A DNA stretch of 64,000 bases, taken from Prevotella sp. Its GTDB lineage: Bacteria; Bacteroidota; Bacteroidia; Bacteroidales; Bacteroidaceae. Position numbers and translations under genes: made by a program. The stretch is taken from NCBI GenBank assembly GCA_017538105.1, contig JAFYJN010000085.1, forward strand, positions 62,001 to 126,000. The letters are read 5' to 3'. Each line of letters starts with the position of its first letter. Within the stretch, counting starts at the first letter, position 1. The notes beneath the pieces are model-generated. The model was not told the DNA's origin and did no database searches. It saw only the letters and a program-made list of their open reading frames with translations. This document shows, piece by piece, positions 29,678 through 62,112 of the stretch.

Positions 29678-30322
29678 ATGAAAAAACTATTCTATATCAT
29701 GCTGCTCACCCTGGGTATGGTTCAGGGAGCCAGCGCACAGGATGCCATCGCCAGCATCCGTAAGCACTACAACGAGACGAAGGCATCAGTTGACCTAATG
29801 ATGAAAGCTTACGAAGATCGGTGTAAAAGCATTGACGAGACGGTGGGCGAGGAAGGGTGGCCTCCGGCTTTCTACGAGACGATTGTCATGCAGAATCTGC
29901 CCGCCACGGGTCCTCACAAAGAAACATTCCGCTTTTTCTACTACGATTATGAAGACTATGAGCGCGAGGGCGGTCCCGTATTCTGGCGTAAGATCCATTT
30001 TGCCACAGTAGCATATAACTTCGCTGCCCGTGAATACTATGAGGAATATCTGTTCGATGAACAGGGGAACATACAGTTCATCTATGCCCGTAACAGCGAC
30101 ATGGACGAATATACACAACTCGACTTCCGCTTCTATTTCGACAAAGGGAAACTAGTTCACGCCATCATTCAAGGACGTAACGACATAGAGGGCGACTTCA
30201 CATCCCTTTATACAGGCAAGAACGTACCCTCGAAATACAAGGGTTCTCTCGACTATTATGTCGGTTATACCAAAAGGGTGAAAAACCTGTTCGACGCCAT
30301 CGACTCGGGGGAACACTTTTGA
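29678..30322 (+). CDS. Unrecognised secreted protein
   Basis: A 214-residue protein with a signal peptide (MKKLFYIMLLTLGMVQGASAQ). The mature part is acidic and rich in Tyr, Phe and Glu, with a pattern of amphipathic strands (FRFFYYDYEDYE, REYYEEYLFDEQGN). I do not recognise the family. It stands alone between the zinc-ribbon gene and butyrate kinase, and its coding end runs straight into a heptad repeat tract. Confidence 0.72.
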   Translation: MKKLFYIMLLTLGMVQGASAQDAIASIRKHYNETKASVDLMMKAYEDRCKSIDETVGEEGWPPAFYETIVMQNLPATGPHKETFRFFYYDYEDYEREGGPVFWRKIHFATVAYNFAAREYYEEYLFDEQGNIQFIYARNSDMDEYTQLDFRFYFDKGKLVHAIIQGRNDIEGDFTSLYTGKNVPSKYKGSLDYYVGYTKRVKNLFDAIDSGEHF

Positions 30323-30500
30323 AGGGTAAAAAGGTAAAAGGGTAAAAAGGTAAAAGGGTAAAAGGGTAAAAAGGTAAAAGGGTAAAAAGGTAAAAGGGTA
30401 AAAAGGTAAAAGGGTAAAAAAGTAAAAAGGGAAGTAAAAAGGGAAGTTAAGCACTTCGTGCAGGACAATAGTCTTGAAAGGTAAAGGGGTAAAATAGAAA
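30323..30500. repeat. GGTAAAA heptad tandem tract with a hairpin (copy 1 of a dispersed repeat)
   Basis: About 110 bp of alternating GGTAAAA/GGGTAAAA units follow the stop codon at 30322. They lead into a 50-bp element (30431-30480) with a small hairpin (GCACTTCGTGC) and GGACAATAG. The 50-bp element recurs at 41590-41639 with three mismatches. Frames through the tract give only low-complexity peptides. Confidence 0.85.
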
Positions 30501-31843: not shown

Positions 31844-32158
31844 CTAGAAGAATTCCACATTGCCATATTTTCCATAAACAATACACTTTGACCTTTTCCT
31901 ATTAAGGCTGTGATAGATATTGCTTTCCTGACTATCAGCGGACATTATAATGCTTACATCGCAACACTTTATCGGTATGACTTTCTTTACTCGTTCTTTA
32001 TGCATATTAGCATTACCTACTGTGCCGCAATACCTGACATACAGATTCTCATGCAGTTGGAAGAATCCATCCTTAACTAATGCCTTTTGAAAAGTATCCT
32101 TTGCTTTTCGTCCCACCTTATTATAGCGAGTGAAACTAGTAACGACATAAATCCACAT
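31844..32158 (-). CDS. cas2: Cas2 CRISPR adaptation protein, without the usual catalytic Asp
   Basis: A 104-residue protein 4 bp after the cas1 stop codon. I chose the ATG at 32158 because an earlier in-frame start at 32203 would overlap cas1 and add a non-family extension. It aligns by eye with type II-C Cas2: a first strand WIYVVTSF, a FQKALVKDGFFQLHENLYVRYCG core (given here in part), ANMHKERVKKVIP, and the C-terminal strand KYGNVEFF. The Asp that normally ends strand 1 (as in FFDLPT) is replaced by Ser or Thr (VVTSFT), so nuclease activity is unlikely. That activity is not needed for integration in studied systems; Cas2 acts as a bridge between Cas1 dimers. No effector gene lies beside the pair. 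Confidence 0.85.
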   Translation of the reverse strand: MWIYVVTSFTRYNKVGRKAKDTFQKALVKDGFFQLHENLYVRYCGTVGNANMHKERVKKVIPIKCCDVSIIMSADSQESNIYHSLNRKRSKCIVYGKYGNVEFF

Positions 32159-32162
32159 ACTT

Positions 32163-33020
32163 TCAAATCGTCGGATAAACAATAACCCTACCATTTCCCT
32201 CATAAATACCTGCCAATGTAGAAGCCGTTAATGTCAATGCATCAGCAGGAATATTTTGATAGAATAATTCCAGAAGTCTCCTCTTCGATTCTCGGCACAC
32301 TTCCGTCAGTCCATCTTTCATCATTCGTATTATCTGATTGTCAACATAAGGCCTGTATGGTTCCATAACATCATCGGCCAAAGGAAACGCATCGTGACAA
32401 TTATGATGGAAGATTCCCACAAGAGGAAGTAGTCCTGCATTCATAAGACTTCTAGCCAACATAGAACGGAGCACGGCATAGCCGTAATTGAGTAGAGCAT
32501 TCGGAGGACCTCCAAACCTGTCACGAATAAAGTCCTTTCCCATTAGTTTCAACCAATAGACCCTAGCAGCCACTCCTTCTCGATTGGTGGAATCGCCACT
32601 TTTAACATTGTTGTAGTAGGTGGTAAGCAATGATTTACCAATGCCCAATTTCTCAAGCAATAAGGACTGGTTACGTATTTTAGCCTCTACGATTTGTTTC
32701 CATATTTGTTTGTTGACAGGTTTTGATGCAGCCAACTGGCATCTTATCCTTTTCGACTGCAAGGTATTAGATTCCATATCCAACAACATTGACACGGGCA
32801 TATGTTTCTCATCGCAGAACACGACGCCGATATTTAATTTCGATAATTTAGCGATGAGAGGTATCGTTATCTTGACGGAATGATTATCCACCATAATCAT
32901 TTGGATGTCCTCCAACGAGCGCAATGTCATCTCTTCTGTCTCCCTGTCGGTAATGACCAGCATACCATCTTTTAAGGAGAGTTCTTTTGGTGATTCGAAT
33001 ACTAAAGTTTGCTTTGCCAT
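32163..33020 (-). CDS. cas1: Cas1 CRISPR integrase, type II-C-like
   Basis: A 285-residue Cas1. The length and motifs match subtype II-C Cas1. The metal-binding triad is intact: Glu148 (NREGVAARVYW), His205 (GIFHHNCHDAF; His206 is adjacent) and Glu220 (LADDVMEPYRPYVD). Cas1 with Cas2 cuts and joins pre-spacer DNA into the leader-proximal repeat of an array. Here it is transcribed away from the repeats, with only 118 bp between its start codon and the first repeat. No cas9, csn2, cas4, reverse transcriptase or other effector is found in the window, which is unlike ordinary type II-C loci, where cas9 precedes cas1. Base use is more AT-rich than in the flanking metabolic genes. Confidence 0.95.
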   Translation of the reverse strand: MAKQTLVFESPKELSLKDGMLVITDRETEEMTLRSLEDIQMIMVDNHSVKITIPLIAKLSKLNIGVVFCDEKHMPVSMLLDMESNTLQSKRIRCQLAASKPVNKQIWKQIVEAKIRNQSLLLEKLGIGKSLLTTYYNNVKSGDSTNREGVAARVYWLKLMGKDFIRDRFGGPPNALLNYGYAVLRSMLARSLMNAGLLPLVGIFHHNCHDAFPLADDVMEPYRPYVDNQIIRMMKDGLTEVCRESKRRLLELFYQNIPADALTLTASTLAGIYEGNGRVIVYPTI

Positions 33021-33138
33021 TTTTCGGCTAAATTACAAAAAAATGAATGAAAAATAGAATTCTTTTATTTTTTCATTCATTTTTTGTGTATTTATAAAGA
33101 TTCTAACTATCTTTGCATGACAAAGTTACCAATTAATG
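33021..33138 (+). promoter_or_regulatory. CRISPR leader with promoter and a 17-bp inverted repeat
   Basis: An AT-rich 118-bp stretch between the divergent cas1 start codon and the first repeat. It holds a perfect 17-bp inverted repeat (33038-33054 with 33069-33085, 14-bp centre). A plus-strand promoter reads into the array: TTTG 33083-33086, 21 bp, TAtcTTTG 33108-33115, with a start near 33122, about 17 nt before repeat 1. The right arm of the inverted repeat overlaps the -33 element. It may be a binding site for a host factor or regulator that serves both directions. The in-frame ATG at 33117 would precede the transcript start and is probably not used. Confidence 0.75.
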
Positions 33139-33174
33139 GGTTCGAATACTACCTGAATCCAAACCATTGTAAGC

Positions 33175-33588
33175 GCCCTGAACAAATATTCTTGGGTAAT
33201 GGAAGCGATGAAGCCATTGACCTTTGTTACCGCGTGTTTTGTGAACCCGGCCGTGACAACGTTGTGGCCATCGACCCCACATATGGTATGTACAAGGTTT
33301 GTGCAGACATCAATAATGTGGAATATCGTCCAGTGTCATTGGACGAAAATTTCAACATTATTGCCTCCAGGTTACTTGAGCATACAGACAAACACACAAA
33401 ACTTATCTGGTTATGCTCACCCAACAACCCAACGGGCAATAGTCTTGACCGTAATGAATTGTTGACGATCATGCGACAATTCCAGGGCATTGTGGTTATC
33501 GACGAGGCGTATGGTGACTTTTCTACGAAAAATAGTTTTCGTGAAGAACTGTCTAACTACCCTCATCTCATCGTATTAAATACGATGA
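33175..33588 (+). pseudogene. hisC: Internal fragment of histidinol-phosphate aminotransferase (hisC), first interval
   Basis: Exactly 138 codons of a class I/II aminotransferase, bounded on both sides by the 36-bp repeat. It begins at [18 protein letters not shown] and runs through PTYGMYKV, the [11 protein letters not shown] pyridoxal-phosphate site region and [10 protein letters not shown]. It stops at LIVLNTM, just before the SKAWG segment with the catalytic Lys. Both the N-terminal substrate part and the C-terminal half are missing, so it cannot be an active enzyme. The frame stays open through both repeats, but the only upstream ATG precedes the transcript start. The close match to a Bacteroidales HisC suggests it was copied or taken from a host or relative chromosome. 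Confidence 0.9.
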
Positions 33589-33624
33589 GGTTCGAATACT
33601 ACCTGAATCCAAACCATTGTAAGC

Positions 33625-33705
33625 TAGTAACTGGTTCTGTTGGTCTTTTAACATTATTAGTTGCCTATCAACCTCTTGGGAGTTCTTACTGCTATTTAGT
33701 ATCAT
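33625..33705 (-). pseudogene. First 27 codons of an unknown gene, cut by repeat 2
   Basis: On the minus strand an ATG at 33705 opens a helical, polar sequence ([19 protein letters not shown] onward) that runs for 27 codons to the edge of repeat 2. It continues in frame through the repeat ([12 protein letters not shown]) to a stop six codons later. It looks like the true start of a small coiled-coil protein, but the family is unknown and the fragment is short. Confidence 0.45.
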
Positions 33706-33731
33706 CTTGAAGTTTTTTTTATAAAAAAACG

Positions 33732-33770
33732 AAAAAATCCGCTACTTATTGATTGAGTTGCGGATTTTTT
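33732..33770. terminator. Hairpin with A and T tracts in the second interval
   Basis: Perfect 11-bp arms (33732-33742 and 33760-33770, AAAAAATCCGC with its complement) flank a 17-nt loop. With A and T tracts on either side it could terminate transcription in both directions. Confidence 0.7.
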
Positions 33771-33772
33771 TG

Positions 33773-33866
33773 TACCTTTGCAGCAAAGATGCAATGTAGG
33801 AGGCATTTCACATGTCGGCATCGCAAGATGTGCAGGCTTCGGAATGACCATTTGCGTCTTTTTTTG
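33773..33866 (+). ncRNA. Candidate structured small RNA with own promoter and terminator
   Basis: A TAccTTTG -7 element (33773-33780), with ATTG 21 bp upstream, is followed by about 80 nt of nested complementarity. The stems are 33785-33794 with 33852-33861 (one G-U pair), 33802-33807 with 33843-33849 (one bulge) and 33809-33813 with 33828-33832. The outer stem runs into seven T. The minus-strand coding fragment ends at 33868, so the RNA does not overlap it. It shows no convincing match to the complement of the 36-bp repeat, so it is not an evident tracrRNA. No known RNA family is recognised; pairing was done by eye. Confidence 0.45.
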
Positions 33867-33867
33867 T

Positions 33868-34416
33868 TTATATAAACTTCATCATATAAAGCAATTCCCC
33901 ATCTGTTATTTTGCATTTGAACTCAATCGTTTGCCCCTGATATGTGACTTGGTAAACACTGAAATCGCAACTGTGATGTATTCCTGCTTCAGTTCTAATT
34001 CGGGTGGCTTCTGGAATCCATTTACTAAAATCCGTGGCAGTTTTCAACACATGTACTACATCAGGATCCCTTTTGGATTTTGCGGCGGTCTCTGTAAAGA
34101 ACACCTTTCCAACACCTATTGTGTGACCATCTGCTGTTTGTACCATGGTACGTTTAGCAGGTTGCCCGTTTATAATTGTTGGAGTTAGGTTGTTATCAGC
34201 CCATTGCGTAGCCTTTTCCCTTGCATCCCTAAATTCTTGTGGCGTCAGTCTTTGGTTGTTTCTCTGTGCCTGTGCTTGACGAATTAGACGGCAAGCAGCA
34301 CACAGTTCGTTCTCGGGAATGAAAGCGAGTTTTGCCTTCCCTTTGGCGATGTCGCAGTCGCGGCAGCGGCGTATGGTGTAGGGGTTGTAGTCGGGGAAAG
34401 TCTTTTGTTCTATTCC
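33868..34416 (-). pseudogene. C-terminal fragment of a probable phage head-morphogenesis protein
   Basis: About 182 codons running from the edge of repeat 3 to a natural stop. It has two Cys pairs (RRCRDCDIAKGKAKLAF and CAACRLIRQ), a basic middle and a compact C-terminal domain (VVHVLKTATDFSKWIPEA, FSVYQVTYQGQTIEFKCK). The latter resembles the RNase-like tails seen on phage Mu gpF/SPP1 gp7-type head proteins. The frame extends through the repeat ([12 protein letters not shown]) to an ATG at 34461, which is an accident of the junction. The N-terminal part of the gene is absent. The phage assignment is from memory of the family and moderately sure; the truncation at the repeat is certain. Confidence 0.6.
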
Positions 34417-34661
34417 GGTTCGAATACTACCTGAATCCAAACCATTGTAAGCAAAGGTCACAACCTCTCTCCCCTGCCTTCCCGAGTCCCAGAGGGAAGG
34501 TGAAAGCGGTGTGGCCGCCGCCGTGATCAGGAACCAATCACAGCAGCGGACACACGGCTTGAAGGGTGACGATTATCCCTTAAACCTTGGGAAAGAACAA
34601 GAAAGATGATGTGCAAGACACAAATGTGTGCCAAGACGAGAGATTCTTCTAAAAAATGTGT

Positions 34662-34669
34662 TATCTTTG
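34662..34669 (+). promoter_or_regulatory. -7 promoter element for the TraB/GumN gene
   Basis: TAtcTTTG lies 57-66 bp before the candidate start codons of the gene at 34726. The gene therefore carries its own promoter inside the third interval. Confidence 0.6.
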
Positions 34670-34725
34670 CATGGTATATGACAGATTAATCGGAATTTTG
34701 TGTTTTATATTCCGACAAGCAGAAT

Positions 34726-35646
34726 TTGAATGATATGAACAAAAAGACTATCCTTAGCGTTATTTCCTTTTTTGTTGTTTTCAGCGCCAACGCACAGCTT
34801 CTTTTCCGCATCAGCGGCAATGGACTGGAAAAACCGTCTTACATCCTTGGCACGATACACAATCTGTCTGGTTCGTTGCTCGACAGCATTCCGGAATATC
34901 TGGAGGCGGAGTCGCAATGTCAGCAAATGTATGTGGAGCACAAGCCCTCTGCTACCACCATGGTCGTCAGTTTAGGTGAACCAGATGGAAAACAAGTACA
35001 ACAAGAGGTGGATTATCCTGATGGCAAGAACATCTTTGATGTCATAGATGAAGAGAGTGCAGAAATTCTGGTAGAGAAATACAATGAGTATATGCACATC
35101 AATCTTTCGGACACGACTTGGAAGAGTTTGTGGAAGATTACTCCAGCCGCATTCCAGAACCTTCTTACCTCCCGTTTTTTGGCCCTGTATAGAAACAAAG
35201 GAAGTATGGATTATGAACTCATGGAAAAAGTCCAGGAACGCGGATGGAACGTGGGCCAACTTGATGACGAGAGGATAAAGTGGAATGAACTCTTCGAATA
35301 TCAAGAAAAACTGCCACAGACCATAGAGGAACAGGCAGACTCGTTGATGGCCTTTCTGAAAGACTACGAGGGACGCAAACAACAGGTGGTTAAGGATTAT
35401 GAGTCAACGTGCAAATATTGGAGAACGGGAGATTACGAAGGCTTCGTCAGTCATCTTATTCAAAATGTGAACATCTTCCCTGGTTTACTTAGAGACCGCA
35501 ACGAGAAATGGCTACCGAGAATGATAACCGCCATGTGTGAAAAGCCTACGATGTTTGTCTTCGGCTCCGCCCATCTGATAGGCGAGCATGGCATCATTCA
35601 GTTGCTCCGAGCCTCCGGGTATGAGGTTGAGCAGGTGAAGCGGTAA
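34726..35646 (+). CDS. TraB/GumN-family protein, complete, inside interval 3
   Basis: A 306-residue protein (or 303 from the ATG at 34735) with a signal peptide (FFVVFSANAQ). It starts the mature chain with LLFRISGNGLEKPSYILGTIH, the first conserved block of the TraB/GumN family. The second block, a GSAHLIGEHGIIQLL stretch with a conserved His, is near the C-terminus. Family members are metal-dependent peptidase-like proteins, several linked to envelope functions or pheromone shutdown. The role here is unknown. The gene is intact with its own promoter, unlike the cut fragments in the neighbouring intervals. Confidence 0.82.
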   Translation: MNDMNKKTILSVISFFVVFSANAQLLFRISGNGLEKPSYILGTIHNLSGSLLDSIPEYLEAESQCQQMYVEHKPSATTMVVSLGEPDGKQVQQEVDYPDGKNIFDVIDEESAEILVEKYNEYMHINLSDTTWKSLWKITPAAFQNLLTSRFLALYRNKGSMDYELMEKVQERGWNVGQLDDERIKWNELFEYQEKLPQTIEEQADSLMAFLKDYEGRKQQVVKDYESTCKYWRTGDYEGFVSHLIQNVNIFPGLLRDRNEKWLPRMITAMCEKPTMFVFGSAHLIGEHGIIQLLRASGYEVEQVKR

Positions 35647-35925
35647 GTAAGGCTTTCTTTGACAAATTAATAGTTACGACATGGAAGCCCCGGGGGTATG
35701 ACAGGAATTGCTATTACATAAATGACGCATTCAAGGGCTGCTATGATGATTATTCTATTGCCTTGAAAGATAATTGAATTCCAATATCTCCAAAGGAAGG
35801 TGATTATCTGCAGATAGAATAGGCTCAACGCCAGCATGACAGCGGATGTCTCTTCTAGTCTTGATGTATATTACTATCCAATGATTACTCGATCAATGCC
35901 TGTCTGGAATAGGTACAATCGCAGT
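35647..35925. other. Gap inside interval 3 with a possible decayed reading frame
   Basis: A 279-bp stretch without an intact gene. One plus-strand frame reads like a broken small protein (CYDDYSIALKDN, stop, then PKEGDYLQIE, stop), hinting at decay, but the pieces are too short to assign. Confidence 0.3.
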
Positions 35926-36297
35926 TCAGAAAACGCAGACCCAACCAAACCTGCGAACGATTTCACGAAGCAGGTTGCGGTCTTGGATGGGTATGGTGAG
36001 CGCAACGGTTTCATGCTGGTTGTCGTTGGATGTGGCTTTGGCTGATTCAAGGTCATACTGTGCCTGGGCTGACAACAGTAGTTTAGCAGGCAGCCCGATG
36101 GCTTCTTCTATCTTCACTGCCAAATCTGTGGAAAGAGCACGCTTCCCATTGAGTACTTCGCTCAGATGCGAGGCCTGAATGCCAAGCATCTTGGCAAATT
36201 CCTTCTGGGTGATGCCGCGCTCAACAAGTTCTGGTTTGACCATCATTCCCGGATGCACCGCCATAAACGGTGCTGGATTTTCATTTCTTGTTGCCAT
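35926..36297 (-). CDS. higA: HigA-type antitoxin
   Basis: A 123-residue Xre/HigA antitoxin. The VHPGMMVKPELVERG start and the helix-turn-helix QKEFAKMLGIQASHLSEVLN (about residues 31-50) are typical of the family. The C-terminal tail (EIVRRFGWVCVF) is less usual. It overlaps the end of the toxin gene by 17 nt, the toxin coming first, as in higBA operons. It should bind the toxin and repress the shared promoter. The pair sits in the third interval of the repeat array, and such pairs are known to stabilise chromosomal integrons and mobile elements. Confidence 0.85.
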   Translation of the reverse strand: MATRNENPAPFMAVHPGMMVKPELVERGITQKEFAKMLGIQASHLSEVLNGKRALSTDLAVKIEEAIGLPAKLLLSAQAQYDLESAKATSNDNQHETVALTIPIQDRNLLREIVRRFGWVCVF

Positions 36298-36601
36298 AAT
36301 GTGTGTTGTCTAAACTTAAAACTATTATTCTGATACCACCTTCGAACTCGCGGAAAAGGATACGCTCCACCATTCCGTTGACAACTCTTATGGAACTCAT
36401 TCCATTGGTTCCTGCAAGTTGCTCGTAGTGGAGGAAAGAGATGGAACGGAGGTCACTGGCACGCTCAGACAACCGCAAATAGTTGTATGCTATGGCGAGA
36501 GCCTTCATGAACTTCGAATTGCGGGTGTACTTCTTGTATTTGTTGTTGCGTCCCGTGGTGATCAATTCCTCCAAATCAGTATCTTCGAAAACTATTTGCA
36601 T
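36281..36601 (-). CDS. higB: HigB/RelE-superfamily toxin
   Basis: A 106-residue protein of the HigB branch of the RelE fold: MQIVFEDTDLEELITTG start, a central basic part (KYTRNSKFMKALAIAYNYLR), SFLHYEQLAGTNGMSSIRVV, and a last strand RIIVLSLDNTHY. Such toxins cut mRNA on the ribosome. Its promoter and a likely operator lie directly upstream. The first gene of a two-gene operon with higA. It is intact, with no stop or frameshift. Confidence 0.83.
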   Translation of the reverse strand: MQIVFEDTDLEELITTGRNNKYKKYTRNSKFMKALAIAYNYLRLSERASDLRSISFLHYEQLAGTNGMSSIRVVNGMVERILFREFEGGIRIIVLSLDNTHYGNKK

Positions 36602-36625
36602 GATGACTTGTTTTCAATTTCAAAG

Positions 36626-36663
36626 CAAAGATAGGGAATTATTCCCGAATTTGGGAATAATTC
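36626..36663 (-). promoter_or_regulatory. higBA promoter with palindromic operator
   Basis: A minus-strand TAtcTTTG (CAAAGATA on the plus strand, 36626-36633) is abutted by an 11-bp inverted repeat (36636-36646 with 36653-36663). One half is itself a 13-bp palindrome (36634-36646). Its position between the -7 and -33 regions suits repression by HigA. Confidence 0.65.
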
Positions 36664-37093
36664 GCACGTTATTTCTTCTTTTTTAACGAAAAAACGTTTC
36701 TAAAGTGGGTTTTATATTCATTTAGACTCATAAAGGCTCATTTCCTTGACCTCTCCGCTTGAAGGGTGGCAAGGAACGGGAAACATTAGGAACGGCTTGG
36801 TTGACGGGTTGACAACGCCTTGGCATTCTCAACTTGTCAACCATGGAAACAGGAAACACACTCCACGACATCGGCAGCATATTCCCGCCATGGGCAGGAA
36901 CATCCTGCGGTTGCCGTGGGCATCAAGAAACAGCAAACACAAGGGTAAGGGGCTCTCCCGGACAACGGCGGTGAAACGACTGACCGCCCGAAATCCGATG
37001 GAGTGACAGGCAGAGCAGACCTGCCCTGCCCGTCGTGTGAGGATGAGCGCGGTGTCTTTCACCAAAGGGGAAAGGGAGTGTCCCTGGGCCGCG
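36664..37093. other. GC-rich end of interval 3, no supported gene
   Basis: Apart from an AT-rich 60 bp, this stretch is richer in G and C than its surroundings. It has overlapping open frames on both strands (for example 36746-37006 on the plus strand), none with a recognisable motif, signal or promoter. It ends exactly at repeat 4. The other end of the interval (34453-34620) has similar base use, so the two ends may come from one source. Confidence 0.4.
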
Positions 37094-37129
37094 GGTTCGA
37101 ATACTACCTGAATCCAAACCATTGTAAGC

Positions 37130-37474
37130 GGAAATCGCTTCATTAATCCCATTCGTGATAGTGCCCCATAAACCATAGGCCATCCTGCCAATCAACCCTC
37201 CTATGCCGTTTTTTACAACATCCTTTATGTGGTCGTTCAGGCCTTTATAACCTGTATTAACATGGTTTATATAATCTCTGTGCGTTTTTAATATGGCATT
37301 CAAATCGGCTATTTTTGCTGCTTTTTCTTCATATTCTTCCGTTCCGATTTTTAACTTGTTCATCTCCTTTGTCAGTTTGTTGATCTGACTACGGATGGAA
37401 CGTACGCTGCCGTCTATCTCCTTGTTGTTGATATAGAGATTGATTGTTCGTTTTGTTTCTTTGTTTACCGCCAT
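37130..37474 (-). pseudogene. N-terminal fragment of a probable phage tape-measure protein
   Basis: From the ATG at 37474, 115 codons run to the edge of repeat 4. The start MAVNKETKRTINLYINNKE, then a long heptad-rich coiled coil (QINKLTKEMNKLKIGTEEYE, KIADLNAILKTHRDYINHV) and a hydrophobic GIGGLIGRMAYGLWGTI stretch match the beginnings of tape-measure proteins in Bacteroidetes phages. The frame continues through the repeat ([12 protein letters not shown]) into unrelated sequence. A full tape-measure gene would be several times longer, so it is truncated. Phage origin is likely but not proven. Confidence 0.65.
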
Positions 37475-37642
37475 GTTACTATTGTATTTGTCACGCCAAA
37501 CTTACAAAAAAGCACAATTTTGACAAAGGACTGTTTATTATTGTAACGATTCTGTGGACTTGAAGTAAAATTGAGGGAACCACTATTTGTAGAGAAGTAG
37601 CCTATCCGTAGGTTCTTTCCTTGATCTTTTAGGGATTTCCCC

Positions 37643-37674
37643 CTTGACACGAACTGGAATAATCTATATATTTG
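37643..37674 (+). promoter_or_regulatory. Promoter of the small membrane protein in interval 4
   Basis: CTTG (37643-37646), a 20-bp spacer and TAtaTTTG (37667-37674) place a start near 37681, so the ATG at 37698 is used and the one at 37644 is not. Confidence 0.65.
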
Positions 37675-37697
37675 CATCGAAATTAAATACCAACATT

Positions 37698-37889
37698 ATG
37701 AAAGTTATCAAGATCATATTCATAGCGTTACTGGTAGTGCTAAGTATCATTTACGGAGTGGCATTCTTCGATACTTGGCTGTTCAAGTTGGTATTGTTCT
37801 GCATCCTTATATATTTCTTTGTGCGCGTCTTGTGTAAATGGGGAAACGACACAGATTCCAATGATGATTACAATCTTGGGGGATGGTAA
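37698..37889 (+). CDS. Small membrane protein in interval 4
   Basis: A 63-residue protein with two close hydrophobic segments (about residues 4-20 and 27-46) and an acidic, Asn-rich tail (NDTDSNDDYNLGGW). No family is recognised. It is complete and carries its own promoter, so it could be an expressed cargo gene of the array. Confidence 0.6.
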   Translation: MKVIKIIFIALLVVLSIIYGVAFFDTWLFKLVLFCILIYFFVRVLCKWGNDTDSNDDYNLGGW

Positions 37890-37989
37890 TGCTTTTTATG
37901 CCGTAATAGATGGTGGTGGGCCACCTACCATGAATTAATCTTTCACCCCTTCGGTTCGAATACTACCTGAATCCAAACAATTGTAAGCT

Positions 37990-60441: not shown

Positions 60442-62112
60442 ATGTTAAAACGACTATATATCAAACATTTCACGCTGATTGACGAGCTTGACATCACCTT
60501 CGATGCCGGTTTCAGTGTGATTACTGGCGAGACGGGTGCCGGCAAAAGCATCATCCTCGGAGCCATTGGCCTGTTGCTAGGTCAACGTGCCGATGCTAAG
60601 AGTGTGAAGAACGGTCACGAGCGTTGCGTGATAGAAGCTCATTTCGATTTGAGCCGCTACGGTTTGGAACCGTTCTTTGAAAGCAACGACCTGGATTATG
60701 ACGCCACCGACACCATCCTCCGTCGCGAGCTGAACATCTCGGGCAAAAGCCGCGCCTTCATCAACGACTGTCCTGTGGGCATTGCCGTTCTCCGCGAACT
60801 CGGTGACCAACTGATGGACATCCACAGCCAACACCAAAACCTACTGCTCAAGAAAGAAGATTTCCAGTTGGGCGTGGTGGATATCCTCACACCCGACAAA
60901 AACACACTGACTGAATACCGCAGTCTTTACCACGAGTACCAGTCGGTCCAGCGCCAACTTGATGAACTTCGCCAAAACATCGACCAACAACGTGACAATG
61001 AAGATTTTCTACGCTATCAGTTGCAGGAGCTGCAACAGGCGGGACTATCCGATGGCGAACAACAGGAGTTGGAACAGAAGAGTGAGACGATGGCCCATGC
61101 CGAGGACATCAAAGGCGGTCTGTACCAAGCCTTCCAGTTGCTCGATGGCGATGATGGCGTGGTGCAACGGCTGCGAAGCATTGCCCATGAACTACACGCC
61201 ATTGAACAGGTGTTTCCCGCCGCCGCAGAATTGGCCGAGCGCATTGACAGCACCCACATCGAACTGAAAGACATTGCAGCCGAAGTGGAACGCCATACCG
61301 ACGATGTAGAGTTCGACCCCCAGGAACTGGAGAGGATCAACGAGCGTCTCGACACCATCTACCATTTGGAAAAGAAACATCATGTGGAAGACATCGGCGC
61401 GCTGCTCGTGTTGCAAACACAGTTGGAGGAACAGCTGTCACGCATCGACCACGGCGACGAGTTGTTGCATGAGATGGAAGAAAAGACGTCCGCGCTAAAA
61501 GCTCAGTGTGAGAGGGTGGCTTGGCGACTGACCACCCTGCGTATGGAATCCGCCCGACAGGTGGAACATGAGATGTGCGAGCGGTTGGTACCTCTCGGCA
61601 TGCCCCATGTCCGTTTCAAGGTCTCGATGGAGGAAAAGGCACTGAGCGCCGACGGTAAGGACAAGGTGTCGTTCCTTTTCAGTGCCAACACGAACACACC
61701 GATGCAACCCATCTCGCAGGTGGCATCCGGTGGTGAGATATCCCGTGTGATGTTGTCGCTGAAAGCCATGATTAGTGGTGCCGTGAAACTGCCCACCATC
61801 ATCTTCGACGAGATAGACACTGGCGTGAGCGGCAAGACTGCCGAACAGATGGCCCGTATCATGCACGAGATGGGAGAGCAAGAGCGACAAGTGATCAGCA
61901 TCACCCACCTGCCACAGATTGCCGCCATGGGAACACACCATTATAAAGTTTACAAGGAAGAAGGCAGCGAGGGTACCACCAGCCACATGGTTCGTCTGAC
62001 CGATGCCGAGCGTGTGGAAGAGATAGCGCAGATGCTCAGTGGCAACAACGTGAGTGCCGCAGCCTTGGAAAATGCCAGGGAACTTATGAAGATTAAAAGA
62101 TTAGAAAATTAA
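60442..62112 (+). CDS. recN: DNA repair protein RecN
   Basis: A 556-residue SMC-like ATPase. Walker A is GETGAGKS (residues 29-36), followed by two long coiled-coil arms, then the ABC signature ASGGEISRVMLSLKA and Walker B TIIFDEIDTGVSG. It acts early in repair of double-strand breaks by holding DNA ends. I chose the ATG at 60442, because the nine codons before it are repeat sequence. The last five or so codons (IKRLEN) are read from an AAAAGATTA tandem tract that continues past the stop codon. Confidence 0.95.
   Translation: MLKRLYIKHFTLIDELDITFDAGFSVITGETGAGKSIILGAIGLLLGQRADAKSVKNGHERCVIEAHFDLSRYGLEPFFESNDLDYDATDTILRRELNISGKSRAFINDCPVGIAVLRELGDQLMDIHSQHQNLLLKKEDFQLGVVDILTPDKNTLTEYRSLYHEYQSVQRQLDELRQNIDQQRDNEDFLRYQLQELQQAGLSDGEQQELEQKSETMAHAEDIKGGLYQAFQLLDGDDGVVQRLRSIAHELHAIEQVFPAAAELAERIDSTHIELKDIAAEVERHTDDVEFDPQELERINERLDTIYHLEKKHHVEDIGALLVLQTQLEEQLSRIDHGDELLHEMEEKTSALKAQCERVAWRLTTLRMESARQVEHEMCERLVPLGMPHVRFKVSMEEKALSADGKDKVSFLFSANTNTPMQPISQVASGGEISRVMLSLKAMISGAVKLPTIIFDEIDTGVSGKTAEQMARIMHEMGEQERQVISITHLPQIAAMGTHHYKVYKEEGSEGTTSHMVRLTDAERVEEIAQMLSGNNVSAAALENARELMKIKRLEN

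Follow-up and report, generated by a model that had tools for sequence, protein, structure and literature searches.

How does an array of CRISPR-type repeats beside a cas1-cas2 pair come to hold gene-sized DNA between its repeats? The question is raised by a locus in a 64,000-nucleotide stretch of Prevotella sp. DNA (positions 62,001 to 126,000 of contig JAFYJN010000085.1, assembly GCA_017538105.1; hereafter the window), where five 36-bp repeats, all on the forward strand, begin 118 bp from cas1 and are separated by intervals of 414, 792, 2641 and 823 bp (Table 1). Four of the repeats are identical and the distal one carries a single change; the first-pass annotation had described this arrangement, and its numbers are exact in the sequence. 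A search of the 3.6-Mb genome with up to three mismatches allowed found the repeat at these five sites alone, in one orientation, while the reversed control gave 0 matches, so the repeats are not due to chance. The exact repeat pattern had 0 matches in the genome-contig and viral-contig collections. The molecular ruler for which Cas1-Cas2 is known sets spacers near 30 bp. In having identical direct repeats next to cas1-cas2, of a length within the usual 23-50 bp or so, the locus is like a CRISPR array; the near-constant short spacer length of such arrays (about 20-50 bp) is absent. Judging from the sequences, it seems likely that Cas1-Cas2 here captures long DNA into a leader-repeat array. This adaptation module for long DNA was the proposal of the first-pass annotation, and it is strengthened by recurrence in eight genomes, decay of the trailer repeats, exact source boundaries and a Cas1-Cas2 pair specific to one clade.

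The same layout was found in 12 arrays from eight genomes, the window genome and seven further ones, with 47 intervals of 189 to 3483 bp. A search of 200 genomes of the genus with the array DNA led to G317 and G478 (genomes and loci are given by our own handles where they have to be told apart). At the same chromosomal site in G317, with 93.7% identity across 764 bp of left flank, a different interval of 1678 bp lies between two related repeats behind a leader, and cas1-cas2 is gone. A Cas1 scan of GTDB species genomes gave 36 loci, five of them in the clade of the window Cas1. Three of these, G478 (RUG812, locus L088, Cas1 91% identical), G686 (RGIG7584, L089, 80%) and G157 (L091, 67%), have at least nine, seven and eight repeats respectively, all with long intervals. 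The fourth, G575 (L090, 75%), shows one repeat before the contig ends and was left out of the array count, and the fifth (L110) is a Cas1 fragment at 71%. Further long-interval arrays are the second arrays of G317 and G157 and one in G430 beside a cas1 pseudogene, where the same leader and first repeat also occur twice, 4.3 kb apart, with one copy next to the pseudogene (L183). G478 has a second, cas-less array (G478b), and the window's own genome has a decayed one on contig C53 (L086 4657-7150), in which a cas1 remnant and leader precede two repeats around a whole BspA-type leucine-rich-repeat gene. The first-pass annotation had suggested looking in related genomes for other long-interval arrays near effector-less cas1-cas2, and several of these are of that kind. 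Its refuting case, related genomes with the same repeats at normal spacing, did not turn up, all 47 intervals being at least 189 bp.

As a blind test, Cas1 alone was used as the query against 393 genomes of the order (E up to 1e-88). Three matched: the window's own genome (G000), G695 (67%) and G710 (57%), the latter two from other families and 98 and 99% complete. The prediction of long-interval arrays from the Cas1 sequence alone held in both, G695 having four repeats with intervals of 342, 232 and 409 bp and G710 eight with intervals of 2350, 1159, 790, 412, 452, 454 and 1874 bp, the array in G710 lying behind cas2 rather than in front of cas1. The G710 Cas1, searched in turn against the 393 genomes, found only G710 and G695. 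Within the genus, a clade Cas1 at 73% identity or more was present in 4 of 398 genomes, one as a pseudogene, and no relatives were confirmed in viral contigs.

Since the sequences come from draft or metagenome assemblies, a short-read assembler might have left a normal array through spacers matching phage or chromosome and returned through others. This seems highly improbable, as the pattern occurs in eight genomes and only with this Cas1 clade, whereas normal arrays were recovered from similar assemblies at 30 of the 37 non-clade loci checked. These comprise the 31 remaining loci of the GTDB scan, 24 with ordinary short-period arrays and 7 without an array, and six others (L080-L085) with periods of 65/66 or about 77 bp. 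Nor would an artefact account for intervals 2-4 of the window, which have no second copy in the genome, for interval 1, which differs from the chromosomal hisC at eight sites, or for the decay and the shared oldest interval described below. Among the ordinary arrays, the 66-bp arrays of two Alkalibacterium loci (L101 and L103) each contain a single place where neighbouring repeats stand 2.9-3.2 kb apart.

The arrays are polar. From the leader to the distal end, the numbers of changes in the repeats are 0 in nine repeats, then 2, 1 and 7 in G478a (12 repeats), 0, 0 and 6 in G317b, 0, 0, 0 and 6 in G695, 0 in six, then 2 and 4 in G710, and 0, 0, 0, 0 and 1 in the window. The order of leader, array and degenerate trailer, which had been noted for the window, extends to these other arrays. 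In G157a repeat variants lie in consecutive blocks, as expected if new copies are templated by the first repeat. G478a and G317b have 1085 bp of their oldest intervals in common, at 99.5% identity from the same boundary, while the newer intervals differ. These patterns point to growth at the leader end and decay of the trailer, as in CRISPR arrays.

The arrangement also resembles an integron. Integrons carry gene-sized inserts, with toxin-antitoxin cargo, between identical sites behind a divergent promoter, and the arrays likewise have a leader, a promoter-like site and cassettes between identical sites, with whole genes and toxin-antitoxin genes as cargo. If the array arose by site-specific recombination, each cassette would bring its own repeat. 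However, the repeats are identical within an array and different between arrays. The 444-bp interval of G478b contains 348 bp that are 99.7% identical, in inverted orientation, to part of window interval 4, and this segment is flanked by different repeats in the two genomes, so the repeats are part of the array rather than of the insert. No recombinase or integrase (IntI) was found among the eight proteins scanned in and beside the window array. The likeness to an integron drawn in the first-pass annotation thus holds for layout and fails for mechanism, and integron-like recombination would seem very unlikely.

The proteins next to the array bear out capture by a Cas1-Cas2 module. The window Cas1 matches Pfam PF01867 (E 4.1e-27) and the NCBIfam type II Cas1 model (268.7 bits against a cut-off of 120), and its E/H/E active-site residues are kept in alignment with solved type II Cas1s. 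Cas2 falls below the cut-off in Pfam and in NCBIfam (20 against 24.5 bits) and can be aligned with the Cas2 proteins adjoining Cas9-linked Cas1s. In a tree of 70 Cas1 proteins (11 of 79 were dropped, six as duplicates and five as partial), all seven full-length Cas1s from long arrays form one clade within type II Cas1 with support of 100/100. Their nearest relatives have ordinary 65/66-bp arrays, and the two that were checked (L080 and L083) encode Cas9 beside Cas1. In all six aligned clade members Cas2 has lost a short N-terminal extension and the Asp of its VFFDLP motif, which is replaced by Asn in G710 and by Ser in the other five; five aligned clade Cas1s lack an 8-residue stretch of the Cas9-linked relatives. 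Genes flanking cas1-cas2 vary across the four loci listed, and none of these has a Cas9-length gene beside cas1-cas2 except for an ORF of 1162 residues in L091, which reads as a proline dehydrogenase by its sequence. A Cas9 query gave no match in eight of the nine clade genomes, of which four (G478, G575, G430 and G157) are 78-81% complete and one is of unknown completeness. The sole match is in the window's own genome, at a separate locus. That genome has on contig C51 (L085) an ordinary CRISPR locus of about 34 repeats at 76-78 bp spacing, with its own cas1-cas2 and a Cas9 match.

The inserts have identifiable sources with sharp boundaries: at the 16 junctions for which a homologue exists, similarity ends at the repeat or within one base of it. 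For G157a.7, 376 of 377 bases are identical to a viral record; homology sets in at the junction with the repeat, and a local duplication makes up the final 11 bases. The right end of an insert in L079 (10903-10925) is an 11-bp tandem duplication extending into the repeat, perhaps the trace of faulty joining. The eight differences between interval 1 and the full hisC of the same genome include seven at third codon positions, so that the copy probably came from a related working hisC rather than drifting in the array. Five phage records gave protein matches for 5 of 37 intervals, all falling in a region of 1.9 to 2.3 kb at the 3' end of a single phage gene; the records had been picked with one of these intervals, G478a.4, as the query, so the count is 4 of 4. 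This phage gene presumably resembles those of MuF-type head proteins with variable ends. The clustering suggests that phage DNA is captured, or retained, non-randomly along its length. Among some 30 interval proteins scanned, HicA, HigA, TraB/GumN, CotH, BspA-type repeats and LPD3 were recognised, along with weak tape-measure matches, and the majority had no match; the tape-measure-like protein of interval 4 had no match in viral contigs. Genes as cargo, as first proposed, is therefore right for some intervals, which hold whole genes (TraB/GumN, HigA, HicA, CotH, BspA-type), while others hold only fragments such as the hisC interior and phage gene ends. Intervals 2, 9 and 10 of G478a carry related small membrane-protein genes, whose relatives stand in tandem in G317 (contig C36, L179).

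Base composition was compared at 69 insert ends, after dropping 5 of 74 (both ends of G000b.1 and of G430.1, and the left end of G317b.2, which is shared with G478a.11). Read on the strand that joins the repeat with its 3' end, 38 of the 69 have T as the fourth base from that end, against 28% expected, and the maximum chi-square over 15 positions was equalled in 1 of 2000 random placements. In a held-out set, the ten intervals of G695 and G710, T was again at the fourth base in 11 of 20 ends (p 0.021) and at positions -6 to -3 in 39 of 80 (p 6e-4). The preference is equal at both ends, which suggests that a single enzyme works at both. In this the arrays recall casposons, whose Cas1 enzyme, the casposase, inserts gene-sized DNA with a 15 bp target duplication and has an end preference at the terminal -3 position (PMC7786333), against -4 here. 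Target duplication would be common to both. A casposon further has terminal inverted repeats and PolB about a solo cas1. Here, however, Cas1 is paired with a Cas2, the pair is of type II descent, the target is a fixed leader-repeat, the inserts stand in tandem arrays and, apart from the weak T preference, they have no shared ends.

Of 13 leaders, 9 have the promoter-like element TAnnTTTG ahead of repeat 1 and one more has it with one change; it is also present in G695, so the array is probably transcribed. A leader-driven transcript could in principle confer immunity, with phage stretches acting as antisense or guide RNA for an unlinked host nuclease, and the phage-derived intervals would fit such a role. 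Yet there is no linked effector, Rfam gave only a chance-level match and thus no known RNA family, the cargo includes non-phage genes (hisC, CotH, BspA-type), and the phage gene fragments lie in both orientations. Immunity by long RNA therefore appears improbable, and a benefit from the captured genes is the likelier of the two. Two candidate signals within the intervals were rejected. TAnnTTTGC occurs at 36 sites in the first 37 intervals, against a mean of 16.7 in host DNA (maximum 32 in 1000 draws) and 5.2 in phage DNA (maximum 14). However, equally strong enrichment was seen for 5 of 149 permuted motifs, the sites were split 17 to 19 by orientation, and in the ten held-out intervals the motif occurred 5 times in 8474 bp, close to its frequency in host DNA (75 in 153271). 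Hairpins numbered 5, against a background mean of 5.3.

A different account of the same Cas1-Cas2 pair is that it is a broken adaptation module, which lost Cas9 and then its length control, so that the long inserts are harmless accidents without use. Truncated genes such as the hisC interior, promoter-like sites in both orientations, the decayed members and the patchy occurrence within the order are all in keeping with this. Between the window and G478, however, dN/dS is 0.039/0.333 (about 0.12) for cas1 and 0.033/0.208 (about 0.16) for cas2, values that indicate purifying selection on both genes. The clade is also old enough for Cas1 identity to have fallen to 57% between families, and captures are not random along phages. 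On balance we regard a purposeless, broken module as rather unlikely.

Capture of long DNA by Cas1-Cas2 could thus be pictured as follows. An effector-less adaptation module, descended from Bacteroidota type II CRISPR-Cas, would take up DNA ends, whether from phages, the chromosome or elsewhere, leaving their length unmeasured. Both 3' ends of the captured DNA would be joined across the leader-proximal repeat, which gap repair would double, each event adding one repeat and one insert of 0.2 to 3.5 kb at the leader end. Because growth would occur at that end, the array would form a dated library of long DNA. Insertion would presumably be catalysed by Cas1-Cas2 with double-stranded 3' ends as substrate, and the loss of the ruler may be due to the altered Cas2 and Cas1. 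Selection may keep the module for useful cargo. More tentatively, and with less than even probability, the module may be a heritable, gene-storing capture system that has left RNA-guided immunity. Toxin-antitoxin pairs, accessory loci of phages and further genes would then enter together with their promoters, and the cell could express and pass on parts of the phages and neighbours that it had encountered.

Several points weigh against capture by a working module. Decayed members (the G430 pseudogene, G274, L110 and G000b), together with G317, which lacks an intact cas1, imply that the module is often lost. The five clade members from the GTDB scan are metagenome assemblies or appear so, and inspection of 16 junctions by eye showed no motif beyond the captured pieces.

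The closest CRISPR subtype is, we assume, type II-C, with which the locus has in common Cas1 of family TIGR03639, Cas2_II, repeats of 35-36 bp, a leader and growth at the leader end. It differs in that no Cas9 adjoins, the inserts measure 189-3483 bp where about 30 bp is usual, the Cas2 motif is altered and the Cas1 loop is shorter. Unlike in integrons, no integrase was found beside the array, and the repeat stays with the array instead of travelling with the insert. No account of such arrays was found in the open-access full-text literature searched. If capture of long DNA is correct, bacteria would have a way of acquiring genes that stands between CRISPR adaptation, casposons and integrons, and the adaptation machinery would serve a further purpose, the capture of whole genes. 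A clade without the ruler would also allow a natural comparison of how Cas1-Cas2 sets length, which the changed Cas2 motif and the absent Cas1 loop make directly testable. The module might also become a tool for writing stretches of kilobase length, in order of time, at a fixed site.

Table 1. Features of the window locus (positions are those of the window).
Feature	Position	Strand	Remarks
cas2	31844..32158	-	104 aa from internal ATG; listed ORF start 32203; PADLOC Cas2_II E 1.8e-12
cas1, type II family	32163..33020	-	catalytic E148/H205/E220 kept; Pfam and NCBIfam matches
Leader, 118 bp	33021..33138	+	promoter-like TATCTTTG at 33108-33115; imperfect inverted repeat 33029-33054/33069-33094
Repeat 1 (leader-proximal)	33139..33174	+	
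Interval 1	33175..33588	+	internal hisC fragment; 406/414 bases identical to hisC of same genome (C14)
Repeat 2	33589..33624	+	
Interval 2	33625..34416	-	phage gene 3' end (33871-34416) and downstream intergenic DNA; PHROG 6.6e-14, IMG/VR relatives
Repeat 3	34417..34452	+	
Interval 3	34453..37093		
Whole TraB/GumN-type gene (interval 3)	34726-35646	+	
HigA-type antitoxin (interval 3)	35926-36297	-	
106-aa ORF in toxin position (interval 3)	36281-36601	-	no family match
Repeat 4	37094..37129	+	
Interval 4	37130..37952		
Coiled-coil protein, N-terminal part (interval 4)	37130-37474	-	resembles phage tape-measure starts (weak)
Segment of interval 4	37605-37952		99.7% identical, inverted, to G478 interval
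Small membrane ORF (interval 4)	37698-37889	+	
Repeat 5 (distal, one change)	37953..37988	+	repeat 5 and right flank common to G317

Outside the array, a gene of the acetate kinase family lies downstream of cas2 and one of the phosphorylase superfamily to the right of the array. The leader stem (33029-33094) seems to be kept in the leaders of G317 and G478 with its bases changed. To the left of the locus, at 30322-30449, is a run of tandem 8-bp units (AAGGGTAA/AAAGGTAA), and a similar run is found at the matching site of G317 (L070 6564-6651).

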